DNA of 64,000 nt from Marinagarivorans algicola. GTDB lineage: Bacteria; Pseudomonadota; Gammaproteobacteria; Pseudomonadales; Cellvibrionaceae. The stretch lies in assembly GCF_001292705.1 (NCBI RefSeq), contig NZ_LGAK01000014.1, positions 62,001 through 126,000 of the forward strand, given 5' to 3'. Positions within the stretch are counted from its first letter, which is position 1; each line of letters starts with the position of its first letter. The position numbers were made by a program, and so were the translations under genes. The notes beneath the pieces are model-generated. The model did no database searches. It saw only the letters and a program-made list of their open reading frames with translations, and was not told where the DNA came from. Shown one piece after another: positions 51,912-64,000 of this stretch.

Positions 51912-52958
51912 ATGAAACTACTATTTGGGCTGATTTTCACGCTATCGCTCAGCATGTCTGCGAGTGCCCGTGACTTTACAACCGTCACACCCAATGCCTC
52001 TAAAGAAGCCAAGGCGCTATTAAGCTACTTATACACAATATCTGGCAAACAGATTCTCACCGGTCAACACAATGCGCCACTGAATGGTTCAAACCGCTTA
52101 ATGGGTTTACATAAGCAAGTTGGCGAGTACCCAGCCATTTTTGGACAAGACTTTGGGTTTAGTGAACCGGGCTCTTGGGATGGCATTAACTTTCGTCAAA
52201 ATATTGTAGATGAAGCCATCCGCCGTCACGACCAAGGCTTTATTATTACTTTAATGTGGCATGCCGTAGCCCCTATACACGATGAGCCACAAACCTTTGA
52301 AAATTCTGTTCAAGCCAAACTCACCGATCAACAATGGCAAGAACTGCTCACGCCAGGTACGCATTTGAATGAACGCTGGAAATCACAAGTCGATGTTATT
52401 GCTTGGCATCTTAAACAGTTAAAATATGCCAAAGTCCCCGTCCTATGGCGCCCATACCACGAAATGAATGGCTTTTGGTTTTGGTGGGGTAAACGACAAG
52501 GCCCAGAAGGCTATGCCAAACTTTGGCGTATGCTGTTTGATCGCTTGGTCAACTTTCACCAATTAGATAACCTTATTTGGGTTTGGAATGCTAACGAAGT
52601 CAAAGAAAACGTTCCCGATTACAAACTTTTTTATCCGGGCCATGATGTGGTTGATGTATTAGCCACCGATGTATACAGCGGACAATACAATAAAAACAAT
52701 TACGATCAAATGGTGGCATTAGCCGAAGGCCGCCCTATTGGCTTAGGTGAAATTGGCAAGTTACCCACCACCGACATGCTTAACCAGCAGCCTCAATGGG
52801 CGTGGTTTATGAGCTGGCGTGACCCTGATAACTTTTTTTGGAACGATAATGACTCGCTAAAGCAGTTATTTAATTACAAAAAATCCACCGGCCTACATGA
52901 GCTGCCATGGGTTAACGCCCCAAAAGCCGTGCGACTGCATCAGCCTATTCTTAAATAA
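51912..52958 (+). CDS. Glycoside hydrolase family 26 endo-beta-mannanase
   Basis: A 348-residue secreted retaining glycosidase with a signal peptide (MKLLFGLIFTLSLSMSASA). The catalytic acid/base is Glu184 in WRPYHEMNGFWFWWG and the nucleophile is Glu280 in LGEIGKLP, the GH26 signatures. It has a single domain with no carbohydrate-binding module. It cuts beta-1,4-mannan to manno-oligosaccharides. The next gene, an epimerase of the disaccharide type, supports a mannan pathway. Confidence 0.93.
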   Translation: MKLLFGLIFTLSLSMSASARDFTTVTPNASKEAKALLSYLYTISGKQILTGQHNAPLNGSNRLMGLHKQVGEYPAIFGQDFGFSEPGSWDGINFRQNIVDEAIRRHDQGFIITLMWHAVAPIHDEPQTFENSVQAKLTDQQWQELLTPGTHLNERWKSQVDVIAWHLKQLKYAKVPVLWRPYHEMNGFWFWWGKRQGPEGYAKLWRMLFDRLVNFHQLDNLIWVWNANEVKENVPDYKLFYPGHDVVDVLATDVYSGQYNKNNYDQMVALAEGRPIGLGEIGKLPTTDMLNQQPQWAWFMSWRDPDNFFWNDNDSLKQLFNYKKSTGLHELPWVNAPKAVRLHQPILK

Positions 52959-53044
52959 ATGATCTTTTGAGATATTATCTTAATAACAATATCAATGGGC
53001 TACTTTATATTTGCGGTAGTCCATTTTTTTTGGGCCAAAAATTT

Positions 53045-54286
53045 ATGTTACAAACATCATCACCCACAACCAACAGCTTGATTAACCCACAAGAAATAGA
53101 AGCACACTTAAAAACACTGAGCCAGTGGTGGTTAGAGCACACCTTAACCGACGACAAATACACCTTTGTTGGCGAAGTATCACACGACGGTATCGCTAAT
53201 CCCAAAGCCAATAAAGGCATCATTTTAACCACCCGCATGTTATGGTTTTTTAGCGAAAGCGCAAAAACCTATCAGCACATTGATGCCGTACATTCACAAA
53301 AACTCGAAGCCGCAGCAACTGTCTTATTTCAATTTATTTGTCAGCATTTTATTGATAAAGAATATGGCGGTGTTTTTTGGGAACTCGATTGCTACGGTAA
53401 ACTTATTAATGGCCGTAAACAAGTCTATGCACAAAGCTTTGCGATTTATGCCTTTGCCGCCTATTACACACTGACTCACAACTCAGCAGCTTTAGAGCAA
53501 GCAATGGTTTTATTTTCGTTAATCGAGCAACACAGCCTCGATACGATTCATGGTGGCTATCACGAGGCACTCTCGCAAACCTGGGGGCCATTAGAAGATC
53601 TGCGATTAAGCAACAAAGATCTCAATAGCGCTAAAACCATGAATACACACCTGCATGTATTAGAGGCTTACACAGGCCTTTTCAGTGCACATAAAAATAG
53701 CGCATTAAAAATTGCCCTCACCCGCTTATTAGCCTGTTATGTCGATCGTTTTTATAATGATGACACAGGTCATTTTAAAATGTTTCAAAGTATTGACTGG
53801 CAAGATGAGTCTACGCACTTTTCTTATGGTCACGATATCGAAAGCAGCTGGTTAGTGTGGGAGGCCGCCGAGGCCTTAGAAGACCCCTCAATTCTGAAAA
53901 AATATAAACCGATAACTGTAAAGCTGGCCACAACCTGTATGCAGGCAGGGCTTAATCAAGATGGCTCGGTTATGGACATGCATAATATTGCACAATGCAA
54001 AGATATTCCCGAGCGCATTTGGTGGGTACAGGCCGAGGCGCTGGTTGGCTTTACTAATGCTTATCAATTAACCGGTGATTCCCGCTTTGCAACAACAGCC
54101 CATACAGTTTGGGCGTTTATTAAAGATCAAATTGTTGACAACGTAAAAGGTGAGTGGCATTCAATGGCCCAAAAAGATCAACACGCAAACTACAAAGAAT
54201 ACAAGGTCGGTTTTTGGAAAGGGCCTTATCATAATGGCCGAGCCTTGCTAGAGCTATACCAACGTGCAACGCATACACAACACTAA
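53045..54286 (+). CDS. Cellobiose/mannobiose 2-epimerase (AGE family)
   Basis: A 413-residue (alpha/alpha)6-barrel of the N-acylglucosamine 2-epimerase superfamily. The conserved KTMNTHLHVLEAYTGLF, FSYGHDIESSWLVWEAAE and IWWVQAEALVGFTNAYQ carry the family's catalytic histidines. Next to GH26, mannobiose 2-epimerase (mannobiose to mannosyl-glucose) is more likely than cellobiose epimerase. A downstream mannosylglucose phosphorylase and transporter would be expected but are absent. The ATG at 53045 gives the family N-terminus. Confidence 0.9.
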   Translation: MLQTSSPTTNSLINPQEIEAHLKTLSQWWLEHTLTDDKYTFVGEVSHDGIANPKANKGIILTTRMLWFFSESAKTYQHIDAVHSQKLEAAATVLFQFICQHFIDKEYGGVFWELDCYGKLINGRKQVYAQSFAIYAFAAYYTLTHNSAALEQAMVLFSLIEQHSLDTIHGGYHEALSQTWGPLEDLRLSNKDLNSAKTMNTHLHVLEAYTGLFSAHKNSALKIALTRLLACYVDRFYNDDTGHFKMFQSIDWQDESTHFSYGHDIESSWLVWEAAEALEDPSILKKYKPITVKLATTCMQAGLNQDGSVMDMHNIAQCKDIPERIWWVQAEALVGFTNAYQLTGDSRFATTAHTVWAFIKDQIVDNVKGEWHSMAQKDQHANYKEYKVGFWKGPYHNGRALLELYQRATHTQH

Positions 54287-54414: not shown

Positions 54415-56448
54415 TTAGGGAGTGACAACCAGTATTTTACCCGCAGAATCGATACCATGATTTTTGGCATTGGGCGAGGTTAATACATAAAAGCGACCAT
54501 CAGCGGCCTCATTCACCGTTGACTGTCTAAATTCATCGCGCTCACTACCAACAATAGGATCGCCAATCGTATGCGACGTATTGGTTTGCAATGTAATAAA
54601 TGCACCCGCATCAACCGTACCTGCAACATCATATGACGAAGCAGCAATCATTAAGCGATTACCACTCAGCTCAGTAATAGAGGTTGAAGCAAAATCTTCG
54701 ACCGTTTTACCCACTGTCGGGGCGCCGACCCACAAGCCTGTTGCACCATCGAGTAATCGAACCGAGCCTACAGCCTCATTACCAAACACCTCAAGCGACG
54801 AAACAACAGCAACATTATTATTACTCAGTGCAATAACGCCTCTGTTACCCAATTGCGCGTTTGTGTTTTTTCCTGTTGTGGGCTGCCCAATCACTGCGCC
54901 TGTTGTGCCATCAAATAAAGTAATCGAACCTGCATTTTCAATCCCCTCTACATCGTCTCTCGAGGCGGTAAGCACAAAGTTACCATTAGCCAATGTGGTT
55001 AATATCACGCGCTCAAAATCATCTTTATCATCACCCAGTACCGGCATACCAATACGTTCACCTGTTGCCCCATTAACCAACTGCAAGGCGCCTACATTTT
55101 CTATGCCACCAGCATCGACACCAGAAGAGACCACCACATAATTATTGGTCGCTAAAGCGGCAATACCGCCATTGCCAAAGAAGTCTTTAGGCTGCCCACC
55201 GGTCATCGCATCACCAATAACTTGGTTTGTTGTGCCATTAATTAATTTGATAGAACCTGAGTCTTCGATATTGGTGTTGGTATTATCAAGCGGGGTTAGC
55301 AATACATAATGGCCATTATTTAACGGAGTAATCACATTGCGCGATAACACACTCAGTGAAGGCTCAATAAGCGCATCGCCTATTTGTGTATTATTTTCAC
55401 CATTAATTAATCGAATAGAACTTGGGTGATCAGCACTCCTAGAATGAACCACAAAATGACCGTGACTTAATACCCGAGTAGATTCGCTACCCAGTTGATA
55501 ATTAGCCGCATTCCCCATCAACGTGCTACCGACTTGATCACCTGTTGTTTCATCAAATAAGCGAATAGCGCCAGCATTCTCAAGGCCGACCGCATCACTC
55601 ATTGGCGAGACAACAACAAACTTGCCATTACCGAGTGATAAAACATCAATTTGACTAAACGCCTCGACGCTTTCTCCTGAAATCGTACTGCCTACCTGCA
55701 AACCGCTATCGCCATTAACCAAGATAACCGAACCTGCGCCACTGACACCGGCGGGGTTAAAGCTACGGGATGCAATCGCAAAGTTATTATTTTCAAAAAC
55801 GACAATACCCGCATCACCCATTTGATCCGAAGTCTTCACGCCTTCAAATACGCTTATTTGTATGCCTGTAACGCCATTAATTAATTTAACCGATCCCACA
55901 GAGGAATCACTTGGAGTATTATCGCTTACCGATGCAATAATAAAATTGCCATTGGGTAATGCATAAATGCCATTGCTACCCAAAAAGTCATCATCATCAT
56001 CGCCATTAATCGTCGCTATAATATTTTGCGTACTAGCGTCATACAAATGGACAGAACCAGCTCTTTTGAGACCATTGGCATCATCATCAGGCTTAGCAAC
56101 AACAATATTACCATTGGCCAGTACCGCCACCTCATGACCGTATTCCACCAGCGCACTAGGATTGGGGTCGACCAATTCATTTATCGAGAAATTAGCCGTA
56201 TTGCTCACACTGCTCGCGGTTCCCATATTGTTATCAACACTGACACTGCTATTAGCAGCTGAGCTACTATTAGCGGCTGAACGACTACTGCTGGCGCCGG
56301 TACTCACGGTGCTACTGGCAGTGCCCGTATCTGATGTTGTTGAGGTGCTATTGGGGGTATTACTACCGCCACCACCACCACACGCCGAGAGTAAAACCAA
56401 AGAACAAACACCTACCGATATACGCTGTGATGATAAAAATGACATCAT
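54415..56448 (-). CDS. Lipoprotein with about ten 54-residue propeller-like repeats
   Basis: 677 residues with lipobox Cys23 (VLLSAC) followed by a glycine run and a Ser/Thr/Ala-rich linker (about 31-85), so the body stands off the membrane. From about residue 90 there are about ten repeats of roughly 54 residues, each with LxNGxFVVxS, then xxxNAGSVxLxNGxTG, then xIGxPxxG. The pattern resembles FG-GAP/integrin-like or PQQ-type beta-propeller blades, but I do not recognise an exact family. It is probably a surface protein that binds something extracellular. The function is unknown. Confidence 0.7.
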   Translation of the reverse strand: MMSFLSSQRISVGVCSLVLLSACGGGGGSNTPNSTSTTSDTGTASSTVSTGASSSRSAANSSSAANSSVSVDNNMGTASSVSNTANFSINELVDPNPSALVEYGHEVAVLANGNIVVAKPDDDANGLKRAGSVHLYDASTQNIIATINGDDDDDFLGSNGIYALPNGNFIIASVSDNTPSDSSVGSVKLINGVTGIQISVFEGVKTSDQMGDAGIVVFENNNFAIASRSFNPAGVSGAGSVILVNGDSGLQVGSTISGESVEAFSQIDVLSLGNGKFVVVSPMSDAVGLENAGAIRLFDETTGDQVGSTLMGNAANYQLGSESTRVLSHGHFVVHSRSADHPSSIRLINGENNTQIGDALIEPSLSVLSRNVITPLNNGHYVLLTPLDNTNTNIEDSGSIKLINGTTNQVIGDAMTGGQPKDFFGNGGIAALATNNYVVVSSGVDAGGIENVGALQLVNGATGERIGMPVLGDDKDDFERVILTTLANGNFVLTASRDDVEGIENAGSITLFDGTTGAVIGQPTTGKNTNAQLGNRGVIALSNNNVAVVSSLEVFGNEAVGSVRLLDGATGLWVGAPTVGKTVEDFASTSITELSGNRLMIAASSYDVAGTVDAGAFITLQTNTSHTIGDPIVGSERDEFRQSTVNEAADGRFYVLTSPNAKNHGIDSAGKILVVTP

Positions 56449-57335
56449 TCCGCTATTAACCCCTCTAAAAAGTATTTTTAGAATTATTCGACCTAAGAAA
56501 GACAGATGTTATTCATTAAAGAGGGATCGACAATATGACACAAATTACCTCAATCTGTCGCAAATATGCCCATTCATATTACAATACTGGCATGTAAATG
56601 CGAGCTTAAAAATAACACTAAGTGTGCGCTACCTCACCATCTCTGAATTCATGATCATCATTAATCACTGTATTCACTTTCAATACCAGCCCGTCAAACA
56701 CCTGACTTAGCGTCAGCAATAATAAGCGTATACTTTATTGCTGTTTTTATTGCAGTAAGACCGCCCGACCAAAAGCGTAATAATATCTGTATTTAATTCA
56801 ACATATCGCTATGCGCACGTTAAAAAGACACCCTCTAATGAATACGTATTCATATTGCTGAGGCTTGCTACTTCGGTCATATTTAACCCATTAGATATGT
56901 CTAAATTGTGGTGATTGACACACACTTCATCACACTTTTTATACAGGCCACCCAGTATCTACGGATAAAAAAACTGCTAAAAATAATAAAAAATGGCTGT
57001 TTTTACATACTCGCACCATGCGGGCCTGCGTAGATGTATCTATAAAGCCCTTGCGCACTGCTGAATAATTTAAGCAAAGCCAAAGGCACGATCCACTTTA
57101 ACGCTAAACCCTTTAAAGGCAGTCATACAAACATTTTTGTATGCTTTTAGTCATTTTCAGTTTTTAACAATAATCAATAAATTTCATCGTTACTGTTTAA
57201 CTCTAATCAGTAACAGCACATAGCAGTAATAGCCTAGCAGTAATAGCCTGTCTATTACTTCACTCAAATGTCTCTCTGGTCTGGAGCGCTAATATGCGCT
57301 CATGTGCCTGAGTGTTTTTCAAAAAGGAAAACGCC
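56449..57335. other. Long intergenic region upstream of the giant redox gene
   Basis: 887 bases with no gene. Notable elements: a perfect 16-bp palindrome ATGAATACGTATTCAT at 56838-56853; CATACAAA/TTTGTATG inverted repeat at 57124-57143; a 14-bp perfect tandem duplication TAGCAGTAATAGCC at 57221-57248; and GAGCGC/GCGCTC hairpin at 57284-57301, about 35 bases before the start. The first two look like operators. No regulator is encoded nearby. Confidence 0.6.
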
Positions 57336-60300
57336 ATGAGTCGTATTTTCATATTTTCTACCAACTTACTCAAATTTGTAGGTAGAAAGCGATTATTGAC
57401 CGCTCAAAAATGGGGGCGGCAACTCACCTCAACACTTGTGATTGCCGCTTGCCTACTTCCCATTCCTGGATTGGCTGCGCCAAGTACTTGGAATGAGGCG
57501 TACTTTAGAGGTACCGCCAACAACTGGGGCGCCAGCCCTATGACTTATGATGAGACCAACAGTGTTTGGACCATCACGCAAACCTTTAGCACCAATAACC
57601 CACGCTTCAAAATTGCACGCTTTAATAATTGGAACGAAGCTTACCCTAATGCCGACTTTTTGATTTCAACAGGCCCAGGGGACTACACCATTACCTTTAA
57701 TGATGTCACCAAAGAAATTCAAGCCAGCCTTACCACTTCTGAACCTGATCCCGAGCCAGAGCCCATAGGCGCAAATACGCTGTGCTTTGATAATGCTCAA
57801 AACTTTGCAGAGCCCACCATTTACTACTGGGCGGCCACCCCCGAAGACTCACTCAATAATTTACCCCAGTGGCCTGGACGCGCCATGACAGCTGTAGGTG
57901 AGTACTACTGCTTTGATTTTACGCCCTACTTAGGCGCTGGCAATACACTGCCCACCCGCCTCAATATCATATTTAACAACAAAGGCGCCAACCAAACGGG
58001 CGACTTAACCTTTAACGGCAATGCCTGCTACCAAGACAACACTTGGGTAAGCTTGTCGGCATGCGGATTTGATACAGCGCCAACGCTCAGTGCTGAAGCC
58101 GGCGACAATCGCAGTGTCGCCCAAGGCGCTAACACTGTACTCTCGGCCGCAGGCTCACAAGGCGCTTACACCTCAGCTACCTGGACCAGTAGCGCTTGGC
58201 CCGGCGCGCTAACAGGCTCGCCAACTGTAACACCGGCATTAAATACGGTCGGCCAACATGTCGTGACCTTAACACTCAGTAACGGCACAACCACCGTACA
58301 AGACACCTTTACATTAACCGTTACCCCCGCAGATACCGGCCATGGTATGAATCAAAGGCCAGAGCTTGCACAACCGCTAGCGTTTCCTATTTCGGGCAAC
58401 GTATCAGCAGGTAATTACCGTTTCGAAAAAGCCTTTCCTAATTTAGATGGGCAGTTTTTATCACCGGTTATGATTTTGCCCGACGGCATTAATGATTTGA
58501 TTTTTGTTGTCGATAAACCCGGCTCTATTTTTGTTTTTCCTAACAAAGAAACCGTTACCTCAGGCGAAGTGCGCGAAGTATTAAATATTCAATCAAATGT
58601 GCGCAACTACCATGAGCAAGGCCTACTTAGCATGGCTTTTGACCCTAACTATGCCACCAATGGTTTTATCTACATTTATTACATTCAGGGTAACGATGAT
58701 AACGAGCAAGCCCCCAACGGTGACCATGGCGATGCCATTTTAGAACGCTGGACAATCAACAACCCCAGCAACCCAACCCGCGTTGTGCAAAATTCTAATG
58801 TTGAAGTGTTGCGTATTGAGCAACCGGGCCCCGACCACAAAGGCGGCATGATGCAGTTTCATCCCGAAGACGGCTACTTGTACCTCAGTGTGGGCGATGG
58901 TGCTTACGGCCATAGTGCCATTACCCCCTTCCCCGATGTTGATGGGCGCACCAACAATAGCGCGCAAGATACGACTAATTTACGTGGCTCATTAATTCGT
59001 ATTCAACCGCTAGAATTCCCGCTGAACAATCAATATTACACCGTCCCTAACGACAACCCTTTTATTGGCGTTGCAGGCTTTCGGCCCGAAATTTACAGCT
59101 ATGGCCACCGCAACCCTTGGCGCTGGTCGTTTGACACAGAAGCCCCTTACACGCTTTGGCAAACAGAAGTAGGCCAAGCTGGTTTTGAAGAAGTGAATGT
59201 CATTCAAAAAGGCAAAAACTACGGTTGGCCAGTCTGCGAAGGTACCACCAACCGCCAAGAGCTCGGCGGCGACCCCGCTAAAAACTGCATCACCGATTTT
59301 GAGCCGCCGCGCGAAGGCTACTTTCAACCCGAAGGTTTCTCAATTATTGGCGGTATTGTTTATCGAGGCAACAAATTACCGGGTTTAACAGGGCGCTTTA
59401 TTTTTGGTGATTATGTCACTAAAAAAATATGGTCTATTGTTGATGGAGACGCCAAAGCGCTCATTAGTGATGCCTTTCCCGAAAACATCGTGTCGTTCGG
59501 TACCGACCTCAGCGGCGAAGAGCTGTTTGTCTCAACCTATGGCGTTGAGTACGGTGGTAATTCGACTATTTATAAAATTGTTGACGACGATGCAGAGGCC
59601 GCTGTTATCCCAGCCAAATTATCGGCGACAGGTTTGTTTTCTGACTTGCGTACATTAACCCCAGTGAGCGGCGTTATTGAATACGAGATCAATAGCAACG
59701 GTTGGTTTGACGGCGCGCAAACCCAGCACTTTATCTCTATCCCTAACGATGCCACCATCGACTTTGATGCAACCGGTGATTGGGCGCTGCCTGTTGGCTC
59801 GGTGGCCGTTAAACATTTAAGTGTCAAGGCCGCCGGTAATACACAAAAGCCCTTTACGACCTCTGTACTATTTAAGCAGGCAACGGGTAACTGGCAAGCC
59901 GCTAACTATTACTGGAACGCAGACGGTACTGATGCCGATCTTGTCACCCAAACACGTGATGTCTTAGATGGCGGCATAGACCCGCGTATGCGTGCCGTGC
60001 AAGCCTCTGCCGATTGCGGCTCCTGCCATACCGGTAGCGGCAGTAAAGAGCCTTTAGCCCTGCATACTCGCCAATGGAATAAAGACTTTGATTATAACGG
60101 CGTCATCGATAACCAATTAGAGGCCTTTGATTATGTGGGCTTGTTTAGCGATAACATTGGCAGTGCCGATAGCTACGACCGTTACGCCGCCATTGATGAT
60201 ACGCGCCAAAGCAGCGGTCAACGCGCCCGCGCCTACCTTGATACTAACTGCTCGCATTGTCATTCGAGTGGGTTTATGGATTTGCGCTTCGATACCCCGC

Positions 60301-63290
60301 TAGCCGACACACGCCTGATTGACCCCAGCAGCACAGGTAGAGCACGCCTGCGCCCGTTTGAGCCTAATAATAGTTTGATTTACATCTATCAAACCAGTGA
60401 TGGCAACCGCATGCCTAAAGGCTCTCGCCATACCAACCCACAGGCACAAGCGCTTTTTGAGCAATGGATTAACGCCGCCGATGCGCAGCAAATCGGCTTA
60501 GCGTTAAACAGCAACAATACACGCTTTTTGCTTGGCGATACCCTAAATGTGACGGTAACGGCCTTATTAGATAACGACTTTCAAACCAATAAGACCGGCC
60601 CTATTATTTGGTCATCGAGCAACAGCAATGTGATTAATACCGCAGGGCTGACCGGCAATACACTCACTATTGCACTCGATACTGTTGGTGAGACGACTCT
60701 AAGTGCTCAAGCCGGTGGCGACTCAGCTTCTTTGTCGATTACTGTGACCGACTCCGATGTGTCAGTCACTAGCTTAAAGATAGCTCCCTCAACTGTAGCG
60801 TTAGTAGATCAGCAGCAATTAGTCGCTTTTGGTACGCGCAACGACGGCTCAAACATTAACCTGTTTGGCGAGGTGACATGGGAGGTTACCGGCGGCACCG
60901 ATGCAATAACAGTTAATAGCACCGGCTTAGTAACCCGCATTGCCAACGGCAACGGCCAAGTAACCGCTCGCTACCAAGGAGTCGCCCAAACGCTAGACAT
61001 TACCCAAGCACGCCAAGATTTTGTGCTGCAGTACGACAATACTAATTCTAATTGGGCCCAAGTCTCGGCTTATGTATGGACCGAAACCAATGGGCAAGTC
61101 ACGGCCGTTGCCGATTGGCCGGGTATTCCTATGACGGGGCCAAATGCCGACGGTATTTGGCGCTATACCGTTGCCCCTGATGTGCTGGTTAATGGCGAAG
61201 TGAATGTTATTTTTAATAATACCAACGGCGACAAAACCGATGACCTGCTAGGCATTAAACAAGCATCAATATATAAAGATGGTATGTGGGAGCCCTTAGC
61301 ACCCAGCACGGCGCTCTCGCGTTTGGCCATTATTGCCGGTAGTACACCCAGTGGCGCACTCGATTTTGCTGTGGGTAGCGTAGTGACGGTAACCGCTGAT
61401 ACCCCTCCTTTAGGTACACAATTTAACGGCTGGAGTGGTGATGGCATAGCTTACATAATTAGCGACCCCTCACAAACATCTATTCAAGTACTCATTCCTG
61501 AACAGGGTATTTCGCTACAGGCCAAATTTAACGCCGATGCCACCGACTACAGTGCCGCGCGTACCTTGTATGCCGGCAACTGCGCACAGTGTCATGGTGC
61601 CGATGGTTCTGGGGGTGTTTCGCTAGCGATTAACCAGCTACATACTAGCAACCGCTATACACAAGATTCGCTCTCGAGCTATATCAGTAACTTTATGCCA
61701 CTGGGTAACCCCAGCGCGTGTACCGGTACAACACCTGGCGACTGTGCTTTTAGTATTGCCAAAATGATACTCAATGACGAATGGAGTGCATGCAGCGGGT
61801 CAGAGTGTGTGGGTACAAGTTTAGATACACGCAATCTGCGCTTACTCACGCGCACCGAATATCTCAACTCTGTACGCGATATTTTTGGCATCGCCTTTAG
61901 CGATACCATTATGTCGTCGGTACCGGCCGATGGTACTTTTAGAAACTACACCACCGCCTCAACTTTGGTAGCTGACAACGACCGAACCTTAGGCTTTGAT
62001 ATTGCCGCCAACGAAATCGCGAATATTGCCATTGCTGCAACAGGCTTTAATGGCTTAGCCTCTGGTTGCGGTAATAATAGAGTGTGTACGGTGCAGCAAC
62101 TTGGCCGTAAAATATTCCGCCGACCATTAAGCAACGCCGAAGCTCAGCGCTATGCCGCTTTATACGATGCCCGCGAAGATGGTGTAACGGTGGTGCAAGG
62201 GCTCTTAATGTCACCGCACTTTATGTACCGCTCAGAACTCGGCGAGCTGAATCGCACCACAGGCTTGTACGAGCTCACCGACTACGAGATGGCCACGTTA
62301 TTAGCCTACACTTTTTGGGTGACTACACCCGATGCAACATTGCTCGATGCAGCTGAAGCAGGCAATTTAAATATCGAGCAGCAAACACGGCGTTTACTGG
62401 CCGATCCTCGTTCAGAGCAAGGGCTAAGACGGTTTGCCTCGGGCTGGCTCATCAACAATCAGTACCCCTTCCCAGCCATTACCCGCGCTAGCCTTGTTGA
62501 TGCTTTTAAAGAAGAGACCATTCGCTTTGTGATGGCAGGCATTCGTGATAATGCACCGTTTAATACTTTGCTCAGTGCCGACTACACCTATGCCAATAGC
62601 GAGCTTGCGGCGCATTACGGTATTGCACCTACTGGCAACTGGACGCGGGCATTTTTCCCGGCAGATGATGAGCGCTCGGGCTCGGGGCTTTTAGGGCACG
62701 GCAGCTTTTTAGCATCGCGTACCAGCACCGTAAACCCCGCCCCCATTAAGCGTGGTGTATATGTACGCGAAGCCATTATGTGCCAGGAGTTTCCGCCACC
62801 GGCTGCTGCTAACTTCGATATTACCTTCGAGCCTAGCGATAGTAACCGCGACGCTACCTCAAGGCATACCGCCGACCCAGCATGCGCTACTTGCCATCAA
62901 TATATTGACGGCGTAGGCTTTGGCTTTGAGCGCTTTGATAGCAGCGGCCTATACCGTACAAGCGAAACCCTAGGTAATGGCACCGCGCAACCTATCGATG
63001 ACTCAGGCTCGATTAAAAGTTTGTATTCACCCGAAACCGTACTCGATCCCGATAGTACAAGCTTCCCTTACTTTTCGGTGCCCGAGCTTGCGGCATTGAT
63101 TGCCGATAGCGGCCAAGGCGAGGCATGTTTTTCTCGTCAATTTTACCGCTATACCGTAGGACGTAACGAAAGCAGTGAAGGCGATGAGCTCTTAATTCGT
63201 AGCTATAGCCAAGATTTGCGCAACGGCGGTGGCATGCTCGATATGCTTATTGATTTAACCACTTCACAAGCCTTTGGCGTACGTCGCTAA
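57336..63290 (+). CDS. Giant secreted fusion: carbohydrate-binding-like modules, PQQ-type sugar dehydrogenase, cytochromes c and DUF1587-1585 block
   Basis: 1984 residues from an ATG with AAGGA upstream. Order by approximate residue: signal peptide (to 46); carbohydrate-binding-like modules 50-135 and 149-245, a pair reminiscent of CBM26 starch-binding folds; PKD-like 247-333; glucose/sorbosone-dehydrogenase-like propeller 360-750. Then comes a region like SO2930-type diheme cytochromes, 750-1045, with CGSCH at 894 and CSHCH at 972; bacterial Ig-like pair 1045-1225; third carbohydrate-binding-like module 1228-1325; InlB-type repeat 1328-1400. It ends with a cytochrome c with CAQCH at 1416 and a DUF1587/1595/1592/1588/1585 block from 1490 (EYLNSVRDIFG, LGRKIFRRPLS, HFMYRSELGEL) including CATCH at 1850. 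A DUF1552 gene follows 14 bases later. Electron transfer from bound sugar is inferred. Confidence 0.85.
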   Translation: MSRIFIFSTNLLKFVGRKRLLTAQKWGRQLTSTLVIAACLLPIPGLAAPSTWNEAYFRGTANNWGASPMTYDETNSVWTITQTFSTNNPRFKIARFNNWNEAYPNADFLISTGPGDYTITFNDVTKEIQASLTTSEPDPEPEPIGANTLCFDNAQNFAEPTIYYWAATPEDSLNNLPQWPGRAMTAVGEYYCFDFTPYLGAGNTLPTRLNIIFNNKGANQTGDLTFNGNACYQDNTWVSLSACGFDTAPTLSAEAGDNRSVAQGANTVLSAAGSQGAYTSATWTSSAWPGALTGSPTVTPALNTVGQHVVTLTLSNGTTTVQDTFTLTVTPADTGHGMNQRPELAQPLAFPISGNVSAGNYRFEKAFPNLDGQFLSPVMILPDGINDLIFVVDKPGSIFVFPNKETVTSGEVREVLNIQSNVRNYHEQGLLSMAFDPNYATNGFIYIYYIQGNDDNEQAPNGDHGDAILERWTINNPSNPTRVVQNSNVEVLRIEQPGPDHKGGMMQFHPEDGYLYLSVGDGAYGHSAITPFPDVDGRTNNSAQDTTNLRGSLIRIQPLEFPLNNQYYTVPNDNPFIGVAGFRPEIYSYGHRNPWRWSFDTEAPYTLWQTEVGQAGFEEVNVIQKGKNYGWPVCEGTTNRQELGGDPAKNCITDFEPPREGYFQPEGFSIIGGIVYRGNKLPGLTGRFIFGDYVTKKIWSIVDGDAKALISDAFPENIVSFGTDLSGEELFVSTYGVEYGGNSTIYKIVDDDAEAAVIPAKLSATGLFSDLRTLTPVSGVIEYEINSNGWFDGAQTQHFISIPNDATIDFDATGDWALPVGSVAVKHLSVKAAGNTQKPFTTSVLFKQATGNWQAANYYWNADGTDADLVTQTRDVLDGGIDPRMRAVQASADCGSCHTGSGSKEPLALHTRQWNKDFDYNGVIDNQLEAFDYVGLFSDNIGSADSYDRYAAIDDTRQSSGQRARAYLDTNCSHCHSSGFMDLRFDTPLADTRLIDPSSTGRARLRPFEPNNSLIYIYQTSDGNRMPKGSRHTNPQAQALFEQWINAADAQQIGLALNSNNTRFLLGDTLNVTVTALLDNDFQTNKTGPIIWSSSNSNVINTAGLTGNTLTIALDTVGETTLSAQAGGDSASLSITVTDSDVSVTSLKIAPSTVALVDQQQLVAFGTRNDGSNINLFGEVTWEVTGGTDAITVNSTGLVTRIANGNGQVTARYQGVAQTLDITQARQDFVLQYDNTNSNWAQVSAYVWTETNGQVTAVADWPGIPMTGPNADGIWRYTVAPDVLVNGEVNVIFNNTNGDKTDDLLGIKQASIYKDGMWEPLAPSTALSRLAIIAGSTPSGALDFAVGSVVTVTADTPPLGTQFNGWSGDGIAYIISDPSQTSIQVLIPEQGISLQAKFNADATDYSAARTLYAGNCAQCHGADGSGGVSLAINQLHTSNRYTQDSLSSYISNFMPLGNPSACTGTTPGDCAFSIAKMILNDEWSACSGSECVGTSLDTRNLRLLTRTEYLNSVRDIFGIAFSDTIMSSVPADGTFRNYTTASTLVADNDRTLGFDIAANEIANIAIAATGFNGLASGCGNNRVCTVQQLGRKIFRRPLSNAEAQRYAALYDAREDGVTVVQGLLMSPHFMYRSELGELNRTTGLYELTDYEMATLLAYTFWVTTPDATLLDAAEAGNLNIEQQTRRLLADPRSEQGLRRFASGWLINNQYPFPAITRASLVDAFKEETIRFVMAGIRDNAPFNTLLSADYTYANSELAAHYGIAPTGNWTRAFFPADDERSGSGLLGHGSFLASRTSTVNPAPIKRGVYVREAIMCQEFPPPAAANFDITFEPSDSNRDATSRHTADPACATCHQYIDGVGFGFERFDSSGLYRTSETLGNGTAQPIDDSGSIKSLYSPETVLDPDSTSFPYFSVPELAALIADSGQGEACFSRQFYRYTVGRNESSEGDELLIRSYSQDLRNGGGMLDMLIDLTTSQAFGVRR

Positions 63291-63304: not shown

Positions 63305-64000
63305 ATGAATAACATGACCCATACCGCGCGACGTAAGTTTCTTTTTGGTTTGGCAAAAACCGGGGCACTTTTGCCTTTTGCCAGCCAAATGTTAGGCCAA
63401 AAAGCACATGCTGCCGGTGGCGCAAAACGCGTACTTTTTATGTATTACCCTAACGGCGTGGTCCCTCACGCTTGGCGGCCGCAGCAAGATAACGGCTCTA
63501 TCTCAACCAGCTCAGAACTCAGCTTTGGCTTAGGGCCGCTAACACCTTGGCACAATAAGATGATTGTGCTCAAAAATTTAAATTTAGATGTAGGCCCCGG
63601 CGCTGGCGCGCACTATAACGATATGCGCGGTATTCTCACCGGCAATAATCAAATTGATTTTAATGGCGCCAGTATTGATCACTTGATTGCCGAACAACTC
63701 GGCAATGAGGGCGTCTTAAGTTTGGGGGTGCGCACCGGCCCCAAGCAAGACATTATGATTTCTAAACCCCGTGGCTACGACAGTAAAAGCCGCCCTATCC
63801 CCAATAATAACCCACGCGATGTCGCCAATAAGTTGGCTTTGCGGATTGGTCCAAGTGAGGGAATTTCTGATTCTAAAAAGGCGATGTACGAAGCCATTTT
63901 GTCGGACTTTAATGGTCTAAGTGACGCCACACTCACCAATGCGCGCCAATCTAAGATCGACTTTCACACCAATGCCTTAATTCGCTTACGCGACCAAGCG
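63305..64000 (+). CDS. DUF1552 family protein, N-terminal part
   Basis: 232 codons are visible, and the frame is still open at the window edge. The ATG has GAGGAG upstream. The N-terminus ARRKFLFGLAKTGALLPFASQ is a twin-arginine-like signal. GAKRVLFMYYPNGVVP and GAHYNDMRGILTG are DUF1552 hallmarks; family members commonly accompany DUF1592-type cytochromes, and such operons occur widely in Planctomycetes. The partner function is unknown. It is co-transcribed with the giant protein. Confidence 0.9.
   Translation, partial: MNNMTHTARRKFLFGLAKTGALLPFASQMLGQKAHAAGGAKRVLFMYYPNGVVPHAWRPQQDNGSISTSSELSFGLGPLTPWHNKMIVLKNLNLDVGPGAGAHYNDMRGILTGNNQIDFNGASIDHLIAEQLGNEGVLSLGVRTGPKQDIMISKPRGYDSKSRPIPNNNPRDVANKLALRIGPSEGISDSKKAMYEAILSDFNGLSDATLTNARQSKIDFHTNALIRLRDQA

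Follow-up and report, generated by a model that had tools for sequence, protein, structure and literature searches.

The gene at 57336–63290 (+ strand) of the window, the 64,000-nucleotide stretch of Marinagarivorans algicola DNA analysed here, encodes a protein of 1984 amino acids that, judged by its sequence, is a starch-directed, diheme-containing variant of the Cbp2D/TERTU_3803 kind, with a putative substrate, cofactor and direction of electron flow. The best explanation for it, which we hold tentatively and at somewhat under an even chance, is an exported, alpha-glucan-targeted multiheme redox protein in which electrons would pass from a propeller to a C-terminal block of DUF domains. The ORF, the Pfam matches and the full-length relatives are consistent with an exported multidomain redox protein.

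The open reading frame extends in a single frame from an ATG at 57336 to a stop codon at 63288–63290, as a sequence-only reading of this stretch had stated. The ATG is preceded by the ribosome-binding-site-like AAAAGGAAAAC; an in-frame GTG upstream, at 57312, would lengthen the protein to 1992 amino acids. The frame is uninterrupted in more than 30 genomes, so the fusion is not an artefact of assembly. Residues 1–48 (57336–57479) resemble a signal peptide on inspection, and relatives have clear A-x-A-type ends just ahead of the X25-like module; from this N-terminus the protein is predicted to be exported.

A Pfam scan of the protein was read at the family cut-offs, with weaker matches viewed up to an E-value of 1. 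Matches above cut-off were found for GSDH (145 bits), PSD4/DUF1592 (99.5 bits), CBM26 (97 bits in two stretches), PSCyt3/DUF1588 (90 bits), PSD5/DUF1595 (47.5 bits), PSD3/DUF1587 (40 bits) and cytochrome c (38–40 bits), while PSD2/DUF1585 was slightly below its cut-off (24.8 vs 25.8 bits). From the N-terminus, the chain starts with an X25 (pullulanase)-like module at residues ~31–130 (57426–57725), a sub-threshold match to PF22058 (E 0.0018) that overlaps the signal-like stretch at its start and has aromatic residues conserved in 30 relatives. Next are a CBM26 module at residues 148–228 (57777–58019), a PKD/Ig-like spacer (58101–58322, a weak Pfam match), and a GSDH six-bladed-propeller domain at residues 345–735 (58368–59540), placed by Pfam, the PDB and comparison with the soluble aldose dehydrogenases sGDH and Asd. 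An SO2930-like diheme region at residues 755–1050 (59598–60485), a Big_2-like Ig spacer region (60513–60980, a weak Pfam match of E 8e-4) and a second CBM26 module at residues 1225–1310 (61008–61265) follow. The chain ends with a small CjX183-like cytochrome c domain at residues 1396–1490 (61521–61805) and a DUF1587/1595/1592/1588/1585 block (PSD3-PSD5-PSD4-PSCyt3-PSD2; 61818–63275) that corresponds to the X132-type C-terminal region. The proposal that one exported chain joins dehydrogenase-like, SO2930-like, cytochrome c and DUF modules was thus borne out by the ORF, Pfam and TIGR03806 matches; the domain searches placed both the dehydrogenase and the DUF modules.

The four c-heme sites named by that reading are all present. 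CxxCH motifs occur at residues 894–898 (60015–60029) and 972–976 (60249–60263) in the SO2930-like region, at 1416–1420 (61581–61595) in the cytochrome c domain, where an invariant M1454 is a candidate distal ligand, and at 1850–1854 (62883–62897) within PSCyt3/DUF1588. Sites 1–3 are invariant in 30 of 30 aligned homologues; site 4 is found in 29 of them, every one in which the region is present, and the remaining row is a truncated locus. The SO2930-like region matches TIGR03806 with 167 bits over two stretches (E 4e-49), below the NCBI subfamily cut-off of 313 bits, and appears homologous to these diheme cytochromes while lying outside the strict subfamily. It had no match in the PDB. The small cytochrome c domain matched a related cytochrome domain (8q1v, E 8e-5) and CjX183, the X183 domain of Cbp2D (7b21, E 2e-4), and the DUF block after it, which has its own CxxCH, completes an arrangement typical of Cbp2D and TERTU_3803. 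The M. algicola genome also encodes a Cbp2D homologue (CBM2-YceI-cytochrome-PSD block, L062:3612–6860), by which the DUF block can be equated with X132 as published. No AA8 b-type cytochrome domain was among the Pfam matches viewed up to E 1. AlphaFold2 models made with 8 sequences each had a pLDDT of 33 for the GSDH-SO2930 part and 41 for the cytochrome-DUF block and were discarded, and the statements on the pocket below come from alignment.

When GTDB contigs were scanned with the protein as guide, the chain was recovered from one uncultured Pseudomonadales genome (90%) and from six Microbulbifer records (60%). The complete architecture is present in 31 of 144 genomes of the Cellvibrionaceae, in seven genera; a 32nd genome (G024), in which the fusion is split over contigs, is outside this count. 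Within a 392-genome sample of the order, the long chain was not found beyond its family, and the other families have GSDH-SO2930 chains of 740–860 amino acids. The exact fusion chain is a family-level trait. Its occurrence is frequent within the family, though with no known role, and the two together are what would have told against the sequence-only reading. That its components are normally separate proteins is wrong: chains of the GSDH-SO2930 and of the cytochrome-DUF159x type both occur commonly, and a GSDH-X183-X132 fusion, TERTU_3803, was published in 2024.

Cellvibrio japonicus (G015, identified by a 100% match to CjX183) is among the carriers. Only two CBM26 proteins were found in its genome, the fusion and a 4000-residue RHS-repeat protein whose N-terminus combines an X25-like module with CBM26 (L129:1344–13343). 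The C. japonicus gene cbp26A is reported to be up on starch, cellulose, mannan, xyloglucan and fungal necromass; either of the two proteins may be its product, and this expression record was not used for the fusion.

CBM26 is a family of starch-binding modules. Both CBM26 modules of the fusion exceed the profile cut-off of 28.1 bits, with 65 and 58 bits, and their aromatic residues – Y163, W165 and W179 in the first, W1240, W1261 and W1275 in the second – are invariant in 30 relatives. The N-terminal modules had only weak matches in the PDB, such as the AMPK beta glycogen-binding domain (E 0.74). A carbohydrate-binding module on the same chain as a signal-like N-terminus is, as far as sequence can tell, another feature of the Cbp2D/TERTU_3803 type. 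In 16 of the 31 loci, GH13 alpha-amylase genes are found beside the fusion gene: 13 of 13 in g22, the Microbulbifer-type genus that includes the named Microbulbifer records, and 3 of 3 in g14. Many of these GH13-flanked loci also have GH31 and/or TonB receptor genes as neighbours, and a Trp-halogenase-like gene is often present. The polysaccharide target is very probably an alpha-glucan, because of the two CBM26 modules with their invariant aromatics, the X25-like module, and the GH13, GH31 and TonB-receptor neighbours in relatives. The sequence-only reading had proposed polysaccharide targeting, and the modules point to starch in particular.

Starch-type neighbours were not found around the fusion gene in the M. 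algicola genome, in g4, g20 and g25, or in most of g9. In M. algicola, two genes at 51912–54286 (+), read from sequence as a GH26-type mannanase-like gene followed by an N-acylglucosamine/mannobiose epimerase-like gene, suggest a mannan locus adjoining the fusion gene, and a divergent gene at 54415–56448 (−) encodes a 677-residue lipoprotein-like protein with DUF5650 repeats. A second CBM26 protein is encoded on another contig (C59, L128:1992–7925); it has 1978 residues, an amylase-like start and four CBM26 matches, and its gene adjoins another amylase-like gene. The starch locus of M. algicola seems to be apart from the fusion gene.

The GSDH propeller is homologous to the soluble aldose dehydrogenases (sGDH/Asd, PF07995), with an sGDH match of E 3e-20, and it is the most conserved segment among relatives (63–95% identity). 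When the family is aligned with sGDH and with Asd (YliI) from E. coli, the equivalents of D143, H144, R228, N229, G247 and E253 are invariant in 30 of 30 relatives, the first four being D500, H501, R592 and N593 in the fusion. The PQQ ligands K377, R406 and R408 are replaced by V694, N717 and V719; in the relatives these columns hold V, N/Y and V/A/S, with a basic residue in 0 of 30. Searches for PqqB and PqqC, which gave matches in positive-control genomes (G038, G071 and G141), found neither protein in any of the 31 fusion carriers. PqqB was found in 11 of 113 non-carriers, so that the contrast is weak as a statistic and the argument lies in the complete absence among carriers. Rajagopal et al. 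(2024) reported neither PQQ binding nor glucose dehydrogenase activity for the SGL-X173 pair of TERTU_3803 (PMC10916295), and in our alignment the TERTU_3803 propeller likewise lacks equivalents of K377, R406 and R408. On these three grounds – lost ligands, absent PqqB and PqqC, and a related propeller that bound none – PQQ is a doubtful cofactor for the fusion. A propeller that is redox-active may use something other than classically bound PQQ as its cofactor.

The propeller could nevertheless be a quinoprotein that oxidises aldoses or maltodextrins with PQQ scavenged from outside, as Asd does in E. coli, and so a bacterial counterpart of the fungal AA12-AA8-CBM1 enzyme CcPDH. No PQQ pathway accompanies Asd in E. 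coli, and the PF07995 score and the invariant catalytic and sugar-facing positions also speak for a true PQQ enzyme. The starch-type propeller also has three invariant basic residues, K502, R538 and K696, which could stand in for the lost ligands; K502 and R538 were not found in the TERTU_3803 propeller. A fungal AA12 enzyme without K377 binds PQQ through other residues (PMC6881789). We consider a PQQ-scavenging enzyme unlikely, if well worth keeping in view. Of the PQQ-type sugar dehydrogenase first read from the sequence, the propeller homology and the sugar-facing and R228/N229-type residues stand; the ligands, the biosynthesis proteins and the result with TERTU_3803 go against the PQQ. Annotation as 'PQQ-dependent sugar dehydrogenase' is unsafe for this GSDH branch.

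A propeller without catalysis is another explanation. In a single-sequence comparison with the PDB, the propeller was closest to HHIP, a eukaryotic non-enzyme whose C-terminal blades are alike in kind (GGxVYRG...FGDY), and the domain might similarly be a binding or scaffold domain, leaving the heme-DUF1592 block and a DUF1552 protein to attack or modify alpha-glucan oxidatively. The M. algicola genome (4.06 Mb, loci L051–L074) has 27 DUF1592 stretches in ~26 proteins, which is a large family expansion, and its sole GSDH is that of the fusion. Several of these paralogues bear other carbohydrate modules (malectin, CBM2-YceI, CBM35 and CBM60-like), and many adjoin a DUF1552-like gene. A 2025 paper proposed that Cbp2D/E cut cellulose directly (PMC12542752); on that view the heme block would be an oxidative depolymerase and not a relay. 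Yet HHIP has lost the RN pair (it has GLHDP), while here the catalytic histidine, the aspartate that faces the sugar and R228/N229 are all invariant, the GSDH is the most conserved segment, and such propellers appear to have been recruited to these blocks more than once. A dead propeller is improbable in our estimation, if by no means negligible.

DUF1552 is the next gene after the fusion in 31 of 31 loci. In the window this partner gene (HXXSHH; 144 bits) starts at 63305 (+), has a twin-arginine-like N-terminus and continues beyond the window end at 64000. Its constant presence makes it doubtful that the fusion is a self-contained machine, as had been thought. Outside the window, some 3 kb past the intact gene in the downstream direction and near transposase-like ORFs, a 179-residue fragment 74% identical to Microbulbifer DUF1552 looks like a partial duplicate (L055:10466–11002; ~129765–130301 of contig C20, genome G000).

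In the mechanism that we favour, the two CBM26 modules and the X25-like module would tether the protein to starch, glycogen or maltodextrin, and the propeller would offer a sugar-oxidation-type pocket to chain ends. Electrons would pass through the two SO2930-like hemes to the X183-type heme and on to the DUF1592-type (X132) heme module, which would act together with the separate DUF1552 protein. Sugar oxidation by the propeller, electron flow from it towards the DUF block, and the final acceptor are what we infer. The loss of the K377/R406/R408 ligands, the absence of PqqB and PqqC, the negative result with TERTU_3803, the lack of starch neighbours in M. algicola and several other genera, and the direct cellulose cutting proposed for Cbp2D/E are counted against this explanation. 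A bolder version, which we regard as unlikely, is that the starch-bound chain is an extracellular oxidoreductase of a new type, in which a propeller with a non-classical cofactor either feeds a DUF1592/X132-DUF1552 heme enzyme or is fed by it, and this enzyme opens or modifies alpha-glucans oxidatively, an LPMO-independent bacterial starch-oxidising system.

Transfer of electrons to a lytic polysaccharide monooxygenase (LPMO), the acceptor offered in the sequence-only reading, is very improbable. CjX183 can slowly reduce AA10 LPMOs (PMC8981238), and most carrier genomes have an LPMO_10 gene, but LPMO_10 is absent from three high-quality carriers (G063, G064 and G065), no LPMO gene was seen near the fusion, and the X183 domains of Teredinibacter turnerae did not drive LPMOs (PMC10916295). 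Starch-active LPMOs (AA13) are, to our knowledge, known from fungi alone.

In the tree of PSD blocks, the starch-type blocks form one clade (support 98/98), and the TERTU-type blocks and Cbp2D are within a separate supported clade (97/95), Cbp2D and seven TERTU-type blocks together having 100/100. The starch-type GSDH domains are also a clade of their own (100/100). The starch-type X132 block lies outside the Cbp2D/TERTU_3803 clade and is not placed as its ortholog; the fusion appears to be of the same kind but of another lineage. The simplest reading of the trees is that GSDH was joined to cytochrome-DUF1592 blocks at least twice, independently, and the TERTU-type chain L122 (G006), whose placement is weak (83/51), may be a third joining. 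Such recurrence suggests a working partnership. Given the tree of DUF blocks, we rejected descent of the starch and TERTU types from one ancestral fusion, with later domain swapping as a possible way around this.

Proteins that combine carbohydrate-binding and redox modules are a known kind, described for Cbp2D (2021) and TERTU_3803 (2024). TERTU_3803 of T. turnerae has the architecture CBM10-X122-SGL-GSDH/X173-CBM2-X183-X132 (PMC10916295, PMC12055684); the chain L096:5698–11244 was taken as TERTU_3803 on domain order, not locus tag, and PF07995 matches its X173 domain, a propeller, with 172 bits. Like the fusion, it is an exported chain that combines CBMs and an X183 cytochrome with a DUF1587–1588 block and a PF07995 propeller, the latter 36.6% identical to that of the fusion (E 2e-53). 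It differs in that its CBMs are of the cellulose type and not CBM26, a further propeller (SGL, gluconolactonase-like) is present, and the SO2930 diheme is missing, which leaves two CxxCH sites where the fusion has four; in the tree its DUF block belongs with Cbp2D, and its propeller lacks the DHK and R538 features. Among the chains compared, a diheme between propeller and cytochrome is found in the starch type only. TERTU_3803-type chains also include the relatives L097, L118, L119 and L121, and in those scanned (L096, L118 and L121) an SGL/gluconolactonase-like propeller is upstream of the GSDH propeller, which suggests a lactonase-plus-dehydrogenase pairing and aldose-to-lactone chemistry despite the negative PQQ test.

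Cbp2D of C. japonicus (CBM2-X158/YceI-FN3-X183-X132) shares with the fusion a CBM-tethered X183 followed by X132/DUF1587–1588, but has YceI in place of GSDH-SO2930, two heme sites instead of four, and a cellulose module instead of starch modules. The Coprinopsis cinerea enzyme CcPDH (AA8-AA12-CBM1), to which a 2025 secretome paper likened TERTU_3803, also has a six-bladed sugar-dehydrogenase propeller, a heme domain and a CBM on one secreted chain; unlike the fusion, it has a cytochrome of the b type where the fusion has c-type hemes, its binding of PQQ is proven, its CBM is a cellulose module, and it has no DUF1592 block. Stand-alone GSDH-SO2930 chains of about 730–880 amino acids (33–44% identical), from this and other families of the order, have the propeller followed by a two-CxxCH SO2930 region, but no starch modules, X183 or DUF1592 block. 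The Planctomycete-type PSCyt/PSD proteins of Verrucomicrobia share PSD/PSCyt3 blocks, neighbouring families of uncharacterised genes and, in some, CBMs; the parts of that account consulted predict them to be periplasmic or cytoplasmic and mention no GSDH-SO2930 fusion (PMC5615132). No description of a starch-directed tetraheme version was found in the literature searched, with subscription journals and supplementary tables outside its reach.

Where the electrons of Cbp2D and TERTU_3803 come from and what X132 does are questions that the review and structural papers raise without settling. The fusion is a natural construct for these questions, in which a fuller and more conserved propeller is wired via a conserved diheme to the same X183-X132 end, and its presumed substrate, starch, is easily assayed. 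The trees indicate more than one joining of propeller to heme block, and a redox story so far centred on cellulose is widened by the fusion to alpha-glucans.
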